A stretch of DNA of 37,760 bases from a virus. The notes beneath the pieces were generated by a model that was not told where the DNA came from, searched no databases, and saw only the letters and a program-made list of their open reading frames with translations. The DNA is taken from the IMG/VR virus record IMGVR_UViG_3300042010_000060, positions 1 through 37,760 of that record; one strand, given 5' to 3'. Position 1 is the first letter of the stretch. Each line of letters opens with the position of its first letter. Positions 5,771-37,640 of this stretch are shown piece by piece. The position numbers and the translations under genes are program-made.

Positions 5771-6448
5771 TTAAACGACAAGTTTCGCGAATATTGCTGG
5801 CATGAAAAAAGCGAACGGATTGGCGGTACCGGTAGCTACGGCATATAGCGTTCCGTTTTGGAAATCCCACAGCGTATAAACCAATCGGCCTTGTGGCGCC
5901 CCTGAAACCATGAGCATGCTGAAAGTATTTATCAGCAGGTATTCGTTCTCAGGAAAGGCGAACGGAACCGTGTAATAATTTCTTGTAGCGCCAGTACCGC
6001 CGTTCTCGAATCGCTGATATGTCCAATTTTGAAATGCCCTTACAAAAAGAGCACTAGGTGTTCCGGAGTCGAACAGCAGTTTCGTTGACCCATTCCATAG
6101 CCTCAATCCGAAGGACGCGACTGGCTGTGAACCAAACGCAGCCGCAAAATAGCGTCCATTCGGCTGTGCCGTAGAGTCGTTGTAGGCTCTTACATAAAAT
6201 CCGGTCCAGTTTCCGGGGCTTCCAATTACTTGCATTTGCCCAAGGCCAGCAATGGCACCAGTATCTGGTCGGCAAAATATAAGTGGAGGCTCCGCACTGG
6301 TGATAGCGATCGGAAAAAATGTGGTCGAACCTAGATTAAACTCCTCAGTTGGAGCATAGCGACCACTACAAATAACATTAAGCCGTCCAAACTCAGAATC
6401 AATGACGACTTCGTTATTATTGTTCGTAAAAGTCAGTCCATATGTCAT
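5771..6448 (-). CDS. Tail-tip structural protein
   Basis: A 225-residue beta-rich protein starting MTYGLTFTNNNNEVVIDSEF, an N-terminus I associate with tail-tip proteins encoded after J in Pseudomonas lambda-like phages. Its codons are visibly more AT-rich than those of the neighbouring J gene, for example runs like ATTATTATTG near 6415. It starts inside the stop of the preceding gene (four-base overlap). It is probably a receptor-contact or J-associated protein. There is no enzymatic motif. Confidence 0.6.
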   Translation of the reverse strand: MTYGLTFTNNNNEVVIDSEFGRLNVICSGRYAPTEEFNLGSTTFFPIAITSAEPPLIFCRPDTGAIAGLGQMQVIGSPGNWTGFYVRAYNDSTAQPNGRYFAAAFGSQPVASFGLRLWNGSTKLLFDSGTPSALFVRAFQNWTYQRFENGGTGATRNYYTVPFAFPENEYLLINTFSMLMVSGAPQGRLVYTLWDFQNGTLYAVATGTANPFAFFMPAIFAKLVV

Positions 6449-6771
6449 GTGGCGAACCTTATAACTAGGAGTCGCATGGTGCCCGAGGTGGAAAGGCTTG
6501 CTGCATGGGTGCGTATATAGTTGTAAACTCGCGCCTCTCCAGAGACCATTTCCGTTTCAAACTGCTTGTTCACCGACTGGTTGTAAGGACCGTTCGGTAT
6601 AACCACGGCAATAGAGTTGGATGCCGTACATCCCGGGACAGAAAAGCTTTGCATACCTTTCGTTTCATCAGGAAAGGTGACCAGAGCCGAAAGTACCACC
6701 CGCATAGTGAACGAGGTTTCGTCGAGCCGCAGGACCCCGTCGGGGCCCCACACCCTTATTCCATGACTCAT
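6445..6771 (-). CDS. Tail-tip protein after J
   Basis: A 108-residue protein (SHGIRVWGPDGVLRLDE, then MRLLVIRF at the end). It shares with the next protein the opening 'GxxVxxxDGxxxxD' pattern, and both occur as a pair downstream of J in Pseudomonas phages. It overlaps the J stop by four bases. It is predicted all-beta. It is probably structural and decorates the tail tip. No biochemical function is known to me. Confidence 0.6.
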   Translation of the reverse strand: MSHGIRVWGPDGVLRLDETSFTMRVVLSALVTFPDETKGMQSFSVPGCTASNSIAVVIPNGPYNQSVNKQFETEMVSGEARVYNYIRTHAASLSTSGTMRLLVIRFAT

Positions 6772-9700
6772 GCGTCGAGATCTCCAAGCTGCACCCGCTT
6801 GACGCCGTTCTGGTCAAAGACCTTGATGGCCCGGTTTGTCATGGTCAGGCGTCCACCACCAGGTGCCGGCCCGTTGAACTCCAAGTTCCCGGCCTTATCC
6901 AGGCGCCAGCCCTGCACACCGGCGACGTAGTTGTCGGATTGCAGGTACTGACCGATCTTCAGCATGGTGATGCTGCCGTCTTGGATAAAGGCCGAGTTCA
7001 TGAAAACCTGGCCGCCCTGCACCGCGAACGGAACCGATATGGCGCCGCCGGCAATGGTGTTGACGATGGCGAACCGGTCCGCGCTGACCAGGAACTGGCT
7101 TTGCAGGCCTGCTGCGGTGTTCTCGATGCCCAGCCCGATGCCGGCGGCAACATACTTGCCGTCGGCCGTGAGCTGCATCTTGACCGACCACATCGTCGAG
7201 GCCTTGCCGTCCAGTGTTGCAACGGCCTGGCTGACCGTCTGAACGGTTGCGTTCGTCTGATTGATTTCGGCCTGGACGGTCTCCACGCTCCTGGCCGTCG
7301 CAATACCATCTTCAAGACGGGCGGATTGCTCGGACCAGACGCCGATGTACACCTGGTCTGAACCCGCGAAGCCTGCCGTGTCGCCTGCCAAGGCCGGGTT
7401 AACCTGGACATACACGCCGTCCAGCCTTGAGGCCTGCGCCGTGAGCTCGTCGCCCTGCTGGTCAATCTTCAGGGTGTTCTCGGAGACCTGCGCCGCAAGT
7501 GCGTTGGCCTCCAGCAGGATCTGCCCGATGTCCTCCCAGTAGGTGGTGTTCGGCGGAGCGTTTGCCCCGCCTGGCTCGGCAGGAACGTCCAGCTTGGCCC
7601 GATACAGGCGATCGCCCTGGTACACCACCGCACCGGTGAGGTACGAGTCTGTCGCCTCATAGAGCATCGGGTTGGAGAGCTCGTCGATCTGCTCCTGAAG
7701 ACCAGGAATCTTGTTGATCTCGTCCAGCAACTCCTGGCCCAGCTCGGTTTCGGTGATCTGCCCCTCGATCATGTCCAGAATCGGACCCGCATCCGAACTC
7801 GCCTGCCCCATCACGCCGTTGCCCACCGGGTACCAAGGCCCGATGTTCCCGGTCCGGTCGACCAGACGCGCCCAGAAAAAGAACGTGGCGCCGGCCAGCA
7901 GGCTTTGCATGCTGTAGTCGCTCTGTGGATAAGCCAGGTCGGCCAGCTTGGTGGCGTTCTCCAGCACGTTGGTTGGCCCGTACCAAATCTCGGTCCGCTG
8001 CGTGTCCTCTGCGCCAGCAGGGAAGCCCCACTTCAGGCCGATGCCGAACAGCAGCGACGTTGCCGTCAGGCTGGTGACCGCTGGCGGCAGGCCTTCTTTA
8101 CCCTTGAGCTCAGTCAGTACTGAGCTGCGCCAGATCGACGAGATGTCGAAAGCGCTCACGGCGCGGACGCGCGCCACGTAGGAGCCGGCATAAATGCCGA
8201 CCACGTCTACGTTGGTCGAGCCGGTGCGCTGGACTTTGATCCAGTTGCCGCTGTCCTTGCGCCATTCGATGTCATACGCCACCGCGCCTTCTACGGCGGG
8301 CCAACTGATCGTCATCGTGGCGACGGCCAATCCTTGAACAACCGAAGAGGTGGAAGTCAGCGTGACGCTCGCGGGCGCCGGAACCACGGTGATCGGAATC
8401 GCGCTGATCGGCCGGTCCTCCAGGCGGGCACCGGTGTCGATGTAGGCGAACTTGCTCGGCTCGTACTGCAGGGCGCTGAACTCAAAATCGCCCTCAGTTG
8501 TGCGGCGACGGCGCAGCACGCGGTATAGCGGGATCGCCAGGTCGTCGGCATCCAGAGCCCATTGGAGCTGCGCCCGTGGCGACTCGCTATATGCGACGGT
8601 CACGGTAACGGCGCGGCCTGCCACACTTTCCACGGTACGCCCTTCGGCTTGACCGCCGGGCAGGTTGATGATCAGCCGATCGCCCGGCTTCGCCAGTGTG
8701 TCGCGGTCCAGGGTAACGACCCGGCCGGCAGCAGCCGATATCCGCCCGCCAATCTCCCTGCCGGCCAGAAGCGAGTCTGCAATCGGGATGATGTAACCAG
8801 GCAGAGCAATCGCGCCCTCCATCCCGGTCTTGAACGTGACGGTCCGGTCCAGGTTGTTGCTGAGGATCGCCCACTTACCGCGGCGCTGGGCCTCGGAGGC
8901 ACGGGTGCAGCCAATGGCGCTCAGTTCGGTTGGCCGGTCGCCATAGCGGCGCTGAAGGTCGAGGTCCGAGAACGGAATGACGTCGGTATCGAAGTTGTTG
9001 GCCGGGTTGTCGTAGCTGACCAGGGCCCGGGTGTACCGGGTCTTGGCCGAGGCGCTGCCGTACGAGAACTTCCCGTCGATGACGTTCGCCCGGGTGAAGA
9101 CGTAGTCGATGTCCTGGGCGCGCGGCATATCGGCCTGCATGATCAGCTGGCCCTGGGCCCAGTAGGTCATGCCTCGGTAGATGCCAGAGATATCCCGCAG
9201 CAGCGTCCAGGCGTCGGCTTTGCCCTGCAGGTTCATGTCGCAAAGGAAGCGCGGCTCGGTGCCGCCCAGGCCATTCGGAACAAGCTGGTCGCAATACTGA
9301 GCGATCCGGTACAGCTCCCACTTGTCGACCATGAACGTCTTGATGCGCTTGCCCAGGCCGAAACGGTCCTCGGTGCAAATGCCGTACGTGATCCAGGCTG
9401 GGTTGTTGGTCCAGGCCAGCTTCATACTGCCGTCCCAAGTCCCGGTGTAGGTGCGCGCGATTGGGTCGTAGTTGCTCGGGACCTGCCATTTCCTGGCCTT
9501 GCACTTCACGGTGACGGCTGGGATGTTGGTGAACTGCTCCGCGTCGAACTCGATGTAGAGGAGCGCGGTATTCGGATAGCGCAGCTTGGCGTCGATCACC
9601 TCTGTGAAGCCGGCGATCAGCATGGTGTCCGCGGTCTTGTTGCTGTTCTGGTTGACCGTCAGGCGGCGTACGCGGATCTGCCAGCCGATGGTGGCCTCGG

Positions 9701-32930: not shown

Positions 32931-33699
32931 AGGTGCCATCCTCCCGACGAATCAGGCCGGCGGTGTAGTCCCGGTCAGCGAAACCGGTGTGACGGGATGC
33001 CGGGAACGGGTGGACGTTGCCGATGGCCTTGTCCGGGAATATCCCGGTCCAGCCGTTGGCGATCGAGATTGCGAGCACCTGGTCCGGGGATGCATGACCC
33101 ACCAGTGACTTGGCCTGTTGCTCACAGCTCTTGGCGGTCAGTGGCTTGCGGATTTCCTTACGGTGCTGGCACCAGTCGGCCCAGGCCTTTTCGGAAACGT
33201 TGTCGGGCTTGGCAGTCATCGGATCGAACTTGCCAGACTTCGCCGGTGCGCCAGCACCTTGCTTTTGATCTTGCTCTTTCTTCTCTTCTCTTCTCTTCTC
33301 TTCTCTGGTCCGCAAACTGTCCGCATCCGAAGCGGACAAATTGCGGACAGGGTTTTTCCGCTCATTGCGCTTGCGTTCCGAGTCGTTGGCGCGGCGCTTG
33401 GCGCTGGCCCCGTTGTGCTCGTCAAAGCGCGGCATTACGAGGCTTCCATCGTCCTCAAGGGCCGCCCACTCAACGTCGATCATGGCCTGGGTGAAGCCAG
33501 GCCAGCCCACCACTGCATCCATCGCATCCACGGTGTATCCCACCAGCACACCATCGTGCGAGTGGGTGTCGAAGATGCTCCAGGCGACATGCAGTCCGCC
33601 GATAATCCTCAATCTGTCCGCTTGCAATGCGGACACCATGCGGAACACTTTCGGATGCGTCTGAAGGTCGATTCGCATTTTTATCCAGTCTCCGGCCAT
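32920..33699 (-). CDS. Replication initiator protein (lambda O-like position)
   Basis: A 259-residue protein. The N-terminal 100 residues (DWIKMRIDLQTHPKVFRMV, then RLRIIGGLHVAWSIFD) form the winged-helix domain seen in phage and plasmid initiators. A charged linker with repeated REEKRREEKKE at about residues 130-140 joins a C-terminal helical domain (KAWADWCQHRKEIRKPLTAKSC). Such proteins bind the origin, often inside their own gene, and recruit the helicase loader encoded next. The linker is encoded by five tandem GAGAA units. The ATG overlaps the rha stop (TAATG). Confidence 0.82.
   Translation of the reverse strand: MAGDWIKMRIDLQTHPKVFRMVSALQADRLRIIGGLHVAWSIFDTHSHDGVLVGYTVDAMDAVVGWPGFTQAMIDVEWAALEDDGSLVMPRFDEHNGASAKRRANDSERKRNERKNPVRNLSASDADSLRTREEKRREEKKEQDQKQGAGAPAKSGKFDPMTAKPDNVSEKAWADWCQHRKEIRKPLTAKSCEQQAKSLVGHASPDQVLAISIANGWTGIFPDKAIGNVHPFPASRHTGFADRDYTAGLIRREDGTYAF
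33281..33305. repeat. Pentanucleotide microsatellite (TTCTC)5 in the initiator gene
   Basis: Five perfect TTCTC units (plus strand) within the linker of the replication initiator. The unit is not a multiple of three, so gain or loss of one copy would shift the frame. Confidence 0.9.
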
Positions 33700-34505
33700 T
33701 ACTTACTGCCTTTGCCGACGATGCCGGCAAGCTCGAGGAAGCGATCGACGTACCAGTGGGGTTGCGTCTCGCGTGGGGATTGGGGGCTGGTGAGGTTCTT
33801 GCCGTACTGGAGACCCTTTTCAGTCACCGACCAGAACGGAACCATTTCGCCCTTGGAGTTCTTGCGCTGGAGCTGCTTGAGGAAGCCATGGGCAGCCAGG
33901 GCAGTGTTGAAGGCCGCAGGCGCGCAGCGGATGCCGCTGTCCTTGAGTAAGGCTGTGGCGGACTTCGTAGGCATCGATGAGCCGCCGATGGAATCGGGCG
34001 CGGCGTCGATTGCGTAGCCTGGGAGGAATTTAGGGTCGAGGCCATTGTTCTGCGCGATCTTGGTCAGCATCATCATTTGGCTTGATGGCGCCGGCTTCAG
34101 CAGTCTGGTGAAGCACTCCATGATCGCCAGCTCACCGACGACCTTCACACTGGCGGGCAGCTCGGGCTTTTGAGCCTGCTTTTCAAGGTACTGCCAGCGA
34201 TCAACCAGCTTGCCGGTGAATTCTGGTGAGAGTTGAGCGACGATAACGTAGCTGTCACGCTCACCCACGTTGTAGACCCTGGTGGCGCGAGGCCGGCCAA
34301 GTTTGTCTATTGCCCATTCATCCTCAGATTGAGGATGGACCAATCCGCCCTCGGCCAAGTCTTCGATGAGCCGCTTCACGTTGTCGTGACGCTTCTTGGT
34401 CAGCTTTGATATTTCCACCGATGACATAGTGCGCGACACGTTTGAGGAATCTTGGAATCGTGTCGCGACATTGGCCGGGGGCTTGATGTTTGTGGTGGTT
34501 TGCAT
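33699..34505 (-). CDS. Rha-family phage regulatory protein
   Basis: A 268-residue protein. TMSSVEISKLTKKRHDNVKRLIED (about 27-49) is the Rha signature (xSxEIAxLTxKxHxNVxRxI), and RVYNVGERDSYVIVAQLSPEFTGKLVDRWQYLE completes the domain. A second, KilA-C-like domain fills the C-terminal half (VTEKGLQYG near residue 220). Rha proteins of lambdoid phages interfere with growth in certain hosts and are thought to be regulators. The first codons contain a two-palindrome operator-like element. The start lies shortly after a plus-strand terminator. Confidence 0.82.
   Translation of the reverse strand: MQTTTNIKPPANVATRFQDSSNVSRTMSSVEISKLTKKRHDNVKRLIEDLAEGGLVHPQSEDEWAIDKLGRPRATRVYNVGERDSYVIVAQLSPEFTGKLVDRWQYLEKQAQKPELPASVKVVGELAIMECFTRLLKPAPSSQMMMLTKIAQNNGLDPKFLPGYAIDAAPDSIGGSSMPTKSATALLKDSGIRCAPAAFNTALAAHGFLKQLQRKNSKGEMVPFWSVTEKGLQYGKNLTSPQSPRETQPHWYVDRFLELAGIVGKGSK
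34428..34471 (-). repeat. Two-palindrome element, copy 2 (inside the rha 5' end)
   Basis: On the minus strand ATGTCGCGACAC, 20 bases, then GTGTCGCGCACT; centre spacing is 32 bases as in copy 1 at 28393-28436. It encodes the VATRF...NVSRT segment of Rha. Confidence 0.8.
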
Positions 34506-34590: not shown

Positions 34591-34803
34591 TTACCCCGAA
34601 GAGTCCCTGCCCGAGGCCCTCATTGGGGGCACCAGCTGAAGGATCTTGGCCTTCTTCCTTCCCACTTCGGAAAGCGCGCCACAGGCAATGGCGGTTTCCG
34701 TCATTTCGTTGATCGCACGGCTGAAGCTCCAGCCGTTTGCGCGCATCAGTTCCTCCACTCGCTGTCGAGTCCGCGGAGGCAGCCTTTCAAGCTCTACGGT
34801 CAT
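34591..34803 (-). CDS. Small DNA-binding-like protein (ribbon-helix-helix type)
   Basis: A 70-residue protein. The ATG at 34803 follows GGAGGG. VELERLPPRTRQRVEELMRANGWSFSRAINEMTETAI has the strand-helix-helix plan of Arc/MetJ-like regulators. The first half is basic. It lies between Rha and another similar small protein in the early operon. The target is unknown. Confidence 0.65.
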   Translation of the reverse strand: MTVELERLPPRTRQRVEELMRANGWSFSRAINEMTETAIACGALSEVGRKKAKILQLVPPMRASGRDSSG

Positions 34804-34822
34804 TTGGCCCTCCAAAGGGGCT

Positions 34823-35023
34823 TCAGCCCGCGATATCTTCTTGTTTGTCCTGCATCAGTTCCTCGATCACGCCGTTGGCTACGGCCCACTCGATGATTTC
34901 GTACAGGTAGGTCGCGTGCTGCATACGGGTCTTGGTTGCGGCTTTACGCAGAATCCGATCAAGCACCGGTTCGAATCGAACCTTCACCGGGATGGCGCGC
35001 TTTTGATTGGGGTCCATGTACAT
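34823..35023 (-). CDS. Small ribbon-helix-helix-like regulator
   Basis: A 66-residue protein. The ATG at 35023 is preceded by AGGAG nine bases upstream; a second ATG follows at 35017. RAIPVKVRFEPVLDRILRKAATKTRMQHATYLYEIIEWAV fits a basic ribbon-helix-helix protein (strand PVKVRFEP, then two helices). It lies directly downstream of cro. Role unknown. Confidence 0.68.
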   Translation of the reverse strand: MYMDPNQKRAIPVKVRFEPVLDRILRKAATKTRMQHATYLYEIIEWAVANGVIEELMQDKQEDIAG

Positions 35024-35079
35024 GCTTCGATGCTCCTGGCTGTTGAAGAGAAAACGGTGGGTTGTGGGTGTCGGCACGT

Positions 35080-35275: not shown

Positions 35276-35304
35276 TTCATATTCAAGCATGCTTGTGTTT
35301 GCAA
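35276..35304 (-). promoter_or_regulatory. Putative early promoter PR for cro and replication genes
   Basis: On the minus strand TTGCAA (35304-35299), 17 bases, then TATGAA (35281-35276). The first operator palindrome lies between the two elements, as expected for repression. Confidence 0.5.
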
Positions 35305-35331
35305 GGCAAGCATGCTTGACAAGCTCTCTTG
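35284..35331. promoter_or_regulatory. CI/Cro operator array (OR counterpart)
   Basis: Two perfect CAAGCATGCTTG palindromes at 35284-35295 and 35307-35318 (centres 23 bases apart), and a weaker CAAG-N4-CTTG at 35320-35331. They fill the 87-base cI-cro gap. Confidence 0.85.
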
Positions 35332-35343
35332 TAGATTGCTCGC

Positions 35344-36198
35344 ATGAAAATTACTGATCGAATCCAGAAGCTGGTCGTGACCCGGAAGCCAGATGTTGGC
35401 CCGCGTAGCTTCAAGCGTGATATCGCGACCACTTGTGGGGTCAGCTATGAGGCTGTTCGCCAATGGTTTGCTGGTGACACGAGCAACATCAAAAACGAAC
35501 ACCTGATTTCCATTGCGGAAGGCTATGACACCAGTGTCGATTGGCTTCTATCGGGCCGAGGCGAACCACCTCGAAGGAAAGATGCGCCGCCCTTGATGGA
35601 CGCCACCGACAGCAAGTCGGCTGCCGATATCGTCCGGCAGATGCTGGAGAAACACGGAAAGAGTCTCACTGAGGATGCTCGCAAGATGATTGCGAACGCT
35701 GTGGAGGAAACCGCCGTCCAGCTTAAATCTGGAAACGTCATCCATGTGGACTTTTCGCGCCCAGGGCAGGTTGGCGACGAGGTTTGGATTGCCCATTACG
35801 ACGTTCGGGCGGCTATGGGTGGCGGTCAGGTACCTGGCGATTATCCAGAGGTGCTCCAGGACATACGGGTAAGTCCGACGCATCTTCGGCAGATGGGAGT
35901 GGAGTTCACCGAGCACTACCACCTCAAGGTCATCACCGGCTGGGGTCAGTCAATGACTCCCACCATCAAGCATCGCGACCCACTGTTAGTCGACGTCAGC
36001 ATTCGGGAGTTCGTCGGCGACGGGATATACCTGTTCTCACATGACGACATGCTTTACATCAAGCGCTTGCAGAAAAAGGGGCGCGATCATTTCAAGATGA
36101 TCTCAGACAACACCAATCACCCTGCCGAGGATATTCGCGTGGATGACACCTTCATCCAGGCGCGGGTGCTGCTGGTCTGGAATGCGAATTTGGTTTAG
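35344..36198 (+). CDS. cI: CI-like prophage repressor with S24 autoprotease
   Basis: A 284-residue protein. The N-terminal helix-turn-helix is at about 22-42 (SFKRDIATTCGVSYEAVRQW). A linker (75-130) leads to a LexA-type S24 peptidase: Ser203 (GWGQSMTPTIK) and Lys240 (MLYIKRLQK) form the catalytic dyad. RecA-triggered self-cleavage would lift repression under SOS; the likely cleavage region is the AAMGGGQ segment near 156-161. It holds the prophage silent. It diverges from cro and shares its recognition residues. Confidence 0.92.
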   Translation: MKITDRIQKLVVTRKPDVGPRSFKRDIATTCGVSYEAVRQWFAGDTSNIKNEHLISIAEGYDTSVDWLLSGRGEPPRRKDAPPLMDATDSKSAADIVRQMLEKHGKSLTEDARKMIANAVEETAVQLKSGNVIHVDFSRPGQVGDEVWIAHYDVRAAMGGGQVPGDYPEVLQDIRVSPTHLRQMGVEFTEHYHLKVITGWGQSMTPTIKHRDPLLVDVSIREFVGDGIYLFSHDDMLYIKRLQKKGRDHFKMISDNTNHPAEDIRVDDTFIQARVLLVWNANLV

Positions 36199-36236
36199 CA
36201 GCTTTAGAGTTATCCATTCAGCAAAGGAAATTTATC

Positions 36237-37157
36237 TTGGCCAAGGAAAATGACGCGGGGAATGGCAAAGGGCTCCCAACAGCAACGCACAAAGGCGTGC
36301 TGAAAATTGCGGACATGGAGATAAATTGCTTCGTCCTTGATGATGGTCGAAGGGTTATATCTGGCAGGGGGATGACAGCGGCCATTGGTATGAAAGGGCG
36401 TGGCCAAGGTATTGCCCGAATTACCAGCTTAAAAGTCATAAAAACGTTTGAAAACAATGCTTTGATGCTGGCCATGCAAAACCCAATTCAATTCCTGGGC
36501 GGCTCACCCCGAAAAGGTGTTCCCAGTGATGGATTTGAGGCCTCAACACTGCAGGATCTCTGCGAAGCATTGCTTCAAGCACGTGATGCCGATCTGCTGA
36601 AAACAGAGCAGGAAATCCGGTACGCGCAATTCGCCGACATCTTGATCCGGTCTTTCGCGCGAGTCGGGATCATTGCTCTTGTTGACGAAGCGACTGGCTT
36701 TCAAGGCGAGCGACCTGCAGATGCTCTACAGCAATACCTTGAGCTTTTGGTCAGTAAGGAACTGGCTGCATGGGTAAAGAAATTTCCCGACGAGTTCTAC
36801 GAAAACATCTACAAACTTAAAGGCTGGGTTTGGCCTGGCATGAAGAAAAACCGCTATAGCGTGGTAGGCAAATACACAAGGGACCTTGTCTTCGAGCGCC
36901 TGGCACCAGGGCTTCTTCCTGAACTCGAAAGCAAAAGCCCAAAGAACGCCAAGGGGCAACGAAAATCAAAGCTCCACCAGTGGCTTACCCAGGATATTGG
37001 CGATCCCATGCTTGCCCAGCATATGCACACCCTTGTCATGTTCCAGCGCTTAGCTATTGCGAATGGCCATAGCTGGGAGCGATTCCTTAAAACGGTCGAC
37101 CAAGTATTGCCCAAGCGTGGGGAGACTTTGGAATTGCCGATGGATCATCTCGAATAA
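36237..37157 (+). CDS. P63C-domain protein in the rex position of the immunity region
   Basis: A 306-residue protein. The start is TTG at 36237 with AAAGGAA upstream. The N-terminal half (LKIADMEINCFVLDDGRRVISGRGMTAAIGMKG) is a domain often joined to P63C, followed by a helical middle (ILIRSFARVGIIALVDEATGF). The C-terminal half is the P63C domain: KFPDEFYENIYKLKGW, YTRDLVFERLAPGLL, QWLTQDIG and the end RGETLELP. The function of the family is not known to me. It follows cI by 38 bases on the same strand and is followed by a terminator, so it is probably expressed in the lysogen. Its DNA is more AT-rich than the structural genes. Confidence 0.83.
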   Translation: MAKENDAGNGKGLPTATHKGVLKIADMEINCFVLDDGRRVISGRGMTAAIGMKGRGQGIARITSLKVIKTFENNALMLAMQNPIQFLGGSPRKGVPSDGFEASTLQDLCEALLQARDADLLKTEQEIRYAQFADILIRSFARVGIIALVDEATGFQGERPADALQQYLELLVSKELAAWVKKFPDEFYENIYKLKGWVWPGMKKNRYSVVGKYTRDLVFERLAPGLLPELESKSPKNAKGQRKSKLHQWLTQDIGDPMLAQHMHTLVMFQRLAIANGHSWERFLKTVDQVLPKRGETLELPMDHLE

Positions 37158-37169
37158 CCAAACCCCATG

Positions 37170-37195
37170 AGCCCGGCCAAGCGCCGGGCTTTTCT
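37170..37195 (+). terminator. Terminator of the cI-P63C transcript
   Basis: AGCCCGGC (37170-37177) pairs with GCCGGGCT (37183-37190) around CAAGC, followed by TTTTCTTT. It also lies directly after the DUF1654 gene end on the other strand, though without a good T-run there. Confidence 0.85.
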
Positions 37196-37202
37196 TTGCC
37201 TG

Positions 37203-37514
37203 TCAGAAAGGCGCCCCCTCCTCTACCCTTTCTATAACCTCAACCGGCCTATCCTCCTCGGCGCACGCCTCCCACCTCAGTGTTACCGATCCATCGTCGT
37301 TGAATGTCATGTCTATGCCATCCGTTTCAGATAGCCGGCCCATCACCTCCTCCCACTCCTGATCTCCGTCGCTGTCCAGGCGATGGATCGTCACCCAGCG
37401 CTGAAGCTGCGCAACCGGGTGATTGATCATGTTCGATACCCTCAGGCCAAGCCGCTCAACCCCCGCCATCTCCCCGTCCCGCCGGGAACCTTCAGTACCT
37501 GCCAGCTGCCTCAT
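37203..37514 (-). CDS. DUF1654-family protein under LexA control
   Basis: A 103-residue protein. The ATG at 37514 is chosen because the frame upstream runs through the LexA box. RLGLRVSNMINHPVAQLQRWVTIHRLDSDGDQEWEEVM is the DUF1654 signature. I know this family only from Pseudomonas and its phages, several members being SOS-linked. Function unknown. It points towards the P63C gene and is divergent from whatever lies right of the window. A LexA box and a CI-type operator array stand directly upstream. Confidence 0.8.
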   Translation of the reverse strand: MRQLAGTEGSRRDGEMAGVERLGLRVSNMINHPVAQLQRWVTIHRLDSDGDQEWEEVMGRLSETDGIDMTFNDDGSVTLRWEACAEEDRPVEVIERVEEGAPF

Positions 37515-37564: not shown

Positions 37565-37640
37565 CAAGCGTGCTTGCATTCAAAACACAAGCATGCTTTT
37601 ATTAATGCAAGCCGACTTGCAAAGCGAAACACAAGCAAGC
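37565..37640. promoter_or_regulatory. Second CI/Cro-type operator array (OL counterpart)
   Basis: CAAGCGTGCTTG (37565-37576), CAAGCATGCTTT (37588-37599), CAAGCCGACTTG (37608-37619) and half-site CAAGCAAGC (37632-37640). The first two centres are 23 bases apart, exactly as in the cI-cro array. Confidence 0.78.

Follow-up and report, generated by a model that had tools for sequence, protein, structure and literature searches.

A P63C-domain gene carried as exchangeable cargo behind a phage cI repressor is a candidate BstA-like exclusion gene

The window analyzed here, an entire IMG/VR virus record of 37,760 b, encodes directly behind its cI repressor a P63C-domain protein whose gene is almost certainly a discrete cargo item in an exchangeable cassette. 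By analogy to bstA, a known abortive-infection gene (PMC8585504), we propose with a probability of roughly 0.5 that it is a lysogen-expressed gene for a BstA-like, DNA-acting exclusion protein. Presumably lacking a promoter of its own, the gene would be transcribed in the lysogen from that of cI, and its product would bind DNA and, as BstA does, shut out rival phages or plasmids, acting on competitor DNA such that replication is blocked; the BstA-like action on replication is the more tentative part of the proposal. As judged from relatives only, the host presumably belongs to Pseudomonas-type bacteria. P63C has until now been a named domain without a function, none being reported for it in the open literature searched.

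The open reading frame, its TTG start, and its P63C domain had been called in an initial annotation of this DNA, and the call was reproduced exactly (Table 1). The protein of 306 residues matches Pfam family P63C (PF10546) at residues 168 to 259 with an E value of 1e-30 and 106.6 bits (cutoff, 26.1), and it matches phrog_2384, whose function is not annotated, over residues 9 to 304 (E 7e-93); the Pfam hit above gathering score and the full-length PHROG hit together place it in the P63C domain family. Apart from P63C, no Pfam domain was found at E values up to 0.1, and the PADLOC and NCBIfam models gave no match. Strong purifying selection acts on the gene, with a pN of 0.10 and saturated pS versus its nearest relatives. 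As the initial annotation also had it, the gene follows cI on the same strand, is AT-rich, and ends at a terminator ahead of a second operator array. The gap to cI measures 38 bp, and the convergent DUF1654 gene additionally lies between terminator and array. The GC content amounts to 50.5% for the P63C gene, 55.0% for cI, and 59.7% for the whole window, with 46.7% at positions 36201 to 36500. Two arrays with CAAGCNNGCTTG-type sites flank the cI-P63C region on both sides. Since no promoter-like site was found in the gap between the two genes, the P63C gene is probably read from the cI promoter. On the minus strand, two small ORFs (34591-34815 and 34823-35077) adjoin the cro-like gene and show weak matches to phrog_5333 and phrog_4113.

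Table 1. Features of the cI-P63C region of the window, followed by P63C-bearing elements of other loci (positions in the respective locus).
Feature	Positions	Strand	Basis or details
Rha-type regulator, separate antirepressor candidate in early operon	33699-34505	-	Phage_pRha E 3e-08; several anti-repressor PHROGs
First CI-type operator array (CAAGCATGCTTG x2, CAAGCTCTCTTG); CAAGCNNGCTTG-type sites	35284..35331	.	Repeat/site search
cI repressor (HTH + Peptidase_S24), upstream gene of presumed shared transcript	35344..36198	+	Pfam, PHROG
Cargo cassette without homology to phages sharing cI and downstream block	36186..37168	.	BLASTN breakpoints vs L182, L183, L186, L187, L194, L184
Probable ribosome-binding site AAAGGA, 8 nt 5' of TTG	36223..36228	+	Sequence
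P63C-domain cargo gene, 306 aa, TTG start, phrog_2384 family	36237..37157	+	ORF call, Pfam, PHROG, purifying selection
Predicted KilA-N/BRO-N/APSES-like N-terminal domain, residues ~15-115	36279..36581	+	AlphaFold model, VIA-align, BFVD matches
GIIALVDEATGFQGER motif (DEATG motif region), residues 144-159	36666..36713	+	Alignment
P63C domain, residues 168-259	36738..37013	+	Pfam
Strong intrinsic terminator, common to phages with empty or filled slot	37169..37191	+	Sequence; homology resumes there
DUF1654 gene, convergent; right slot border in sister phages	37203..37514 (end approximate)	-	Pfam PF07867 E 1e-26; synteny
Second CI-type operator array, CAAGCNNGCTTG-type sites	37565..37619	.	Repeat/site search
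Complete P63C element, L100	782-3499		Terminal repeats 22/22; GAATCTCG
Complete P63C element, L156	2707-5161		Terminal repeats 19/19; CATTCTTT
Complete P63C element, L160	545-2713		Terminal repeats 23/23; TTTTATTT
Complete P63C element, L067	5015-7724		TTCTGTTT
Complete P63C element, L165	4950-7580		CGACGGCT
Complete P63C element, L114	4899-7638		GAGATATG
Non-autonomous P63C element, L086 (viral contig)	5823-6949, 1127 bp		Perfect terminal repeats 27/27; target duplication ATATATTA

BLASTN comparison with the closest phages sharing this cI (those listed for the cassette in Table 1) gave exact borders for the insert: identity of 70 to 89% extends to positions 36182 to 36187, within the last cI codons, then breaks off, and homology restarts at 37167 to 37170, at the terminator. 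A survey of the slot in related phages, as proposed in the initial annotation, covered the best 80 viral loci encoding this cI type, with ORFs called mechanically; in this set, whose frequencies are no population estimates, the slot is empty in seven loci, with nothing between cI and DUF1654 (L186, L205, L209, L221, L223, L226, and L230), and is otherwise filled by more than 40 unrelated sequence families that vary from phage to phage. The cI of L182 is 95% identical to that of the window, yet its slot holds two different genes, and in L212, L213, and L228 the first slot gene is bstA. Ninety representative slot proteins, that of the window gene included, matched 46 PADLOC families, among them BstA, CapP/CapH-type, RmrA, PD-Lambda-2, and several PDC families, the last being candidates only, versus 10 families for a control of 90 proteins encoded in these loci upstream of cI, on the opposite strand; both figures count families, not proteins. 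Judged by these models, the slot is clearly enriched in defense families, to an extent that is imprecise. Further Pfam domains of slot proteins include RelA/SpoT, PIN, HNH, HATPase, and DUF3800. As a side observation, BstA is the third gene after this cI type in L255 and L259, so that the slot can take more than one cargo gene, and many gene families between the cI stop and DUF1654 in L182 to L261 carry neither a Pfam nor a PADLOC name.

The window gene thus presents itself as cI-slot cargo, lying directly after cI, on the same strand, before the terminator, and in a place exchanged among related phages. The exact borders, the hypervariability, and the bstA and defense-model genes of sister phages bear out the lambda rex-like slot for lysogenic cargo that the initial annotation had assumed; that the slot is hypervariable, rich in defense models, and home to bstA in sister phages argues at the same time for an exclusion function. 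Like rexAB of lambda, the gene is located between cI and its terminator and is presumably expressed in the lysogen, but it is a single gene for a protein with a predicted KilA-N-like domain and does not form a RexA/RexB pair. According to Degnan 2007, as cited in PMC8585504, the cI-to-N region is a known diversity hotspot.

The same position is occupied by P63C in other phages. In Lederbergvirus, the gene behind the repressor alternates between bstA in BTP1 (after c1) and P63C in ST104 and SI8 (after cI), and in Erwinia phage Midgardsormr38 and Gordonia phage Kuwabara P63C stands immediately behind the repressor. A FastTree phylogeny was built from 144 P63C proteins, of which 11 lie behind a repressor; these 11 require nine label changes, at least eight of which are forced by supported branches, showing that the family was placed behind the repressor repeatedly. 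This repeated placement and the alternation with bstA lend further weight to exclusion. Against it count relatives in lytic or unlinked positions, such as the nin region of a Stx phage or, in SEN34, a reversed orientation within an operon. Other phage relatives lie near integrases, beside arc/ant immunity genes, or in a satellite phage. The initial annotation had singled the gene out as a candidate for lysogen-expressed defense; judged by slot content this is a good reading, but P63C is not specific to the position, since IS1/IS1595 elements, small plasmids, satellite phages, and lytic operons harbor it as well. Overall, we put a defense or exclusion role at even odds.

The closest functional parallel is the BstA-aba system of BTP1 (PMC8585504), whose gene sits in the same slot, directly after cI and before the terminator, and encodes a protein of about 307 residues, compared with 306 here. 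BstA, like P63C, is found in prophages and on some plasmids, and it has a KilA-N-like N-terminal domain (PMC8585504); the N-terminal domain of the window protein may be comparable, its predicted fold giving matches to APSES, Dachshund, and BRO-like domains. The C-terminal domains have no similarity, and defense is known for BstA but inferred for P63C. In a comparison of profiles, the N termini align at the same place, although weakly (E 0.0012; probability, 19%), pairwise BLAST detects no more than a patch of 20 residues (E 0.013), and the PADLOC BstA model, which finds BstA at 1.9e-124, does not match the window protein at E 10. Given the missing model match and the weak profile similarity, the window protein was rejected as a BstA homologue, and BstA was retained as an analogy.

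AlphaFold was used to model the window protein from 131 sequences (mean pLDDT, 88; pTM, 0.63). The model consists of an N-terminal α/β domain (residues ~15 to 115), a helical middle part bearing the DEATG motif, in which D150, E151, and T153 are invariant among the 131 aligned relatives, and the helical P63C domain. Structure prediction and fold comparison, also suggested in the initial annotation, were productive in part: they yielded a predicted KilA-N/BRO-N-like N-terminal domain and a weak match to DdrC, but no credible Foldseek match in the PDB (best E values, 0.31 with the entire model and 0.95 with its C-terminal part). For the N-terminal region, VIA-align retrieved DdrC (Z about 6), the N-domain of CpGV Orf22, Dachshund/Ski, and the APSES domain of Mbp1; for the C-terminal part alone, DdrC was the sole broad match (Z, 5.9 over 125 residues). 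DdrC of Deinococcus radiodurans (PMC5436757) is the broadest PDB fold match overall, covering both halves with Z scores of 5.7 to 6.2, and a Z score of about 6 falls in a range where a shared arrangement may be everything. The model suggests that the window protein is probably a two-domain DNA-binding protein, with a KilA-N/BRO-N-like N terminus and a helical P63C C terminus; the KilA-N/BRO-N/APSES-like domain and the DdrC fold match are the reasons for which an action on DNA is proposed.

DdrC binds, condenses, and protects DNA (PMC5436757). The window gene might accordingly be lysogenic cargo with a benefit other than defense, encoding a nucleoid-associated, DdrC-like DNA-protecting or regulatory protein that aids persistence of the host or the element. 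With this would fit that DdrC, though only a weak match, is the broadest one and extends over both halves, and that P63C is carried by IS elements and small plasmids besides phages. DdrC is, however, a chromosomal damage-response protein, sequence-profile searches against the PDB returned nothing credible and no P63C-DdrC link, and the slot is rich in defense models in this lineage (46 versus 10 PADLOC families); we regard this explanation as somewhat unlikely. The exclusion reading, for its part, is weakened by the lack of a matching PADLOC model, the weak BstA profile match, and fold matches at a Z score of only about 6.

Another set of comparisons would fit a regulator of the lysis-lysogeny switch, acting as an antirepressor or on transcription. 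The top Foldseek matches among viral models (BFVD) are Mx8 p63, BRO, and antirepressor proteins, the C-terminal part of the window protein weakly matches phrog_2899, anti-repressor Ant (E 6e-07), and Mx8 p63, which combines BRO-N and P63C, is annotated as a potential antirepressor; many relatives also bear a putative autoregulatory site array. The window protein has in common with p63 its P63C domain and an N terminus that resembles BRO-N in fold. In contrast to p63, it has no Pfam BRO-N domain, nor an Ant domain, the two align only over window residues 153 to 260, and p63 lacks the DEATG motif. As the gene is presumed to be cotranscribed with cI, an antirepressor would destabilize its own lysogen, which makes this role quite improbable; moreover, P63C is carried by IS elements and plasmids that have no phage repressor, and the window has a separate antirepressor candidate of the Rha type in its early operon.

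P63C loci drawn from viral and cellular collections (best-80 lists) depict P63C as a mobile gene family. The domain is found on small plasmids of Deinococcus, Acinetobacter, and Caballeronia, where a LlaMI restriction enzyme adjoins one copy and an Abi-family gene lies near another, a neighborhood that supports exclusion. Two transposases recur as partners: an IS1595-type enzyme (zinc ribbon plus DDE), located upstream and overlapping (12 to 13 of 85 upstream neighbors), and a divergent IS1-type enzyme (12 of 20 selected neighbors). Complete elements of the IS1 and IS1595 types, bounded by terminal repeats and flanked by 8-bp target duplications, enclose P63C (Table 1); in the element of L086 it is the sole gene, with no transposase. 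Several IS1-type P63C elements also bear a small convergent gene with a KGG motif. We found no earlier report of P63C carriage by IS1/IS1595-type elements in the open literature, most subscription journals lying outside this scope, and both this passenger role in complete elements and the upstream site array described below appear to be undescribed. Within the genus Pseudomonas, the family is sparse, as a P63C domain match was present in 5 of 299 genomes.

The elements raise the question of whether P63C is an accessory protein of IS1/IS1595 transposition (for target choice, control, or immunity); phages would then have captured it, and in them it may do nothing today. Its enclosure in complete elements with terminal repeats and 8-bp duplications, even alone in an element of 1127 bp, agrees with such an origin. 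Yet P63C pairs with two transposase families and most often with none, the phage copy is under strong purifying selection, and placement behind cI has occurred repeatedly, so that we consider this highly improbable. That the window gene itself is an IS1/IS1595 passenger was ruled out: no IS terminal repeats surround it, the sole inverted repeat being the pair of CI operator arrays.

Alignment of the window gene with its nearest relatives revealed an inverted repeat directly before the start codons of the latter; a separate alignment spanning the full set of 14 phage relatives proved too divergent for scanning. Exact GCAAGC-N(10-22)-GCTTGC repeats were present upstream of P63C in 50 of 142 nonredundant loci versus none in shuffled sequences. 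The repeat is built of half-sites with the near-palindromic sequence TGC(AA/TT)GCA, lying in either orientation, and pairs of them 12 to 32 bp apart occur in 70 of the 142 upstream regions, compared with 1 of 1,450 random regions from the same loci. Preferred spacings are near 21 and 31 bp, corresponding to one face of the DNA. The array is associated with IS1-linked (13/19), phage, and genomic P63C copies but with none of 17 IS1595-coupled copies, and examples include L097, L098, L100, L003, L330, L331, and L332, among others. In a held-out check, all four loci assessed, i.e., the Deinococcus, Acinetobacter, and Caballeronia plasmids and Pseudomonas L334, possessed it, two more Pseudomonas loci, L335 and L336, having been left out as too divergent for the ORF filter. 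An RNA hairpin over the ribosome site was set aside as an explanation of the inverted repeat; DNA binding fits better because the half-sites appear in either orientation and at spacings near 21 and 31 bp. The array may be an autoregulatory operator or a self-immunity element.

Array-bearing genes encode an N-terminal KGG module (GGKARAxxLTPExRSEIAKKAA), recognized by pattern in 67 of 70 and by eye in the remaining three, whereas 30 of 72 P63C genes without an array have it (Fisher p 5e-13, relatedness not corrected). The idea that this module would read the array by itself is unproved; no paired sites accompany the KGG genes that stand on their own in IS1-type elements. Within the supported 14-row clade of the window, all 13 other members have the array; the window copy alone lacks both array and KGG module, and its homology to relatives starts at LPTATHKG. 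On the simple reading, the 5' end would have been lost as the gene came under the cI promoter. The CI operators (CAAGCNNGCTTG) have the same CAAGC half-site as the P63C array, which may be coincidence. These operators were ruled out as P63C targets in the window; they belong to CI, since they are also present in P63C-less phages with this cI. The aba element of BstA is likewise a cis DNA element near the gene start, at a position comparable to that of the array, but its sequence is different, it spans the start codon, and the window copy has no array.

A bolder, unlikely extension would be to see in P63C and its TGC(AA/TT)GCA arrays a mobile module for exclusion that recognizes itself through a cis element, i.e., a BstA-aba-like principle in an unrelated protein, carried among IS1, IS1595, plasmids, satellites, and prophages across several bacterial phyla, of which the window would hold a rewired form under the cI promoter without array and KGG module. 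Three handles on P63C are now available: a cargo cassette with defined borders, for which naturally empty slots offer a comparison, phased TGC(AA/TT)GCA sites as a candidate DNA target, and a BstA parallel that predicts inhibition of phage DNA replication. Phages with this cI offer, in their slot, a compact source from which candidate defense genes can be drawn. If the proposal is true, one exclusion gene family would be common to prophages, IS elements, and plasmids, and BstA would cease to be the only case of self-immunity through a cis DNA element.
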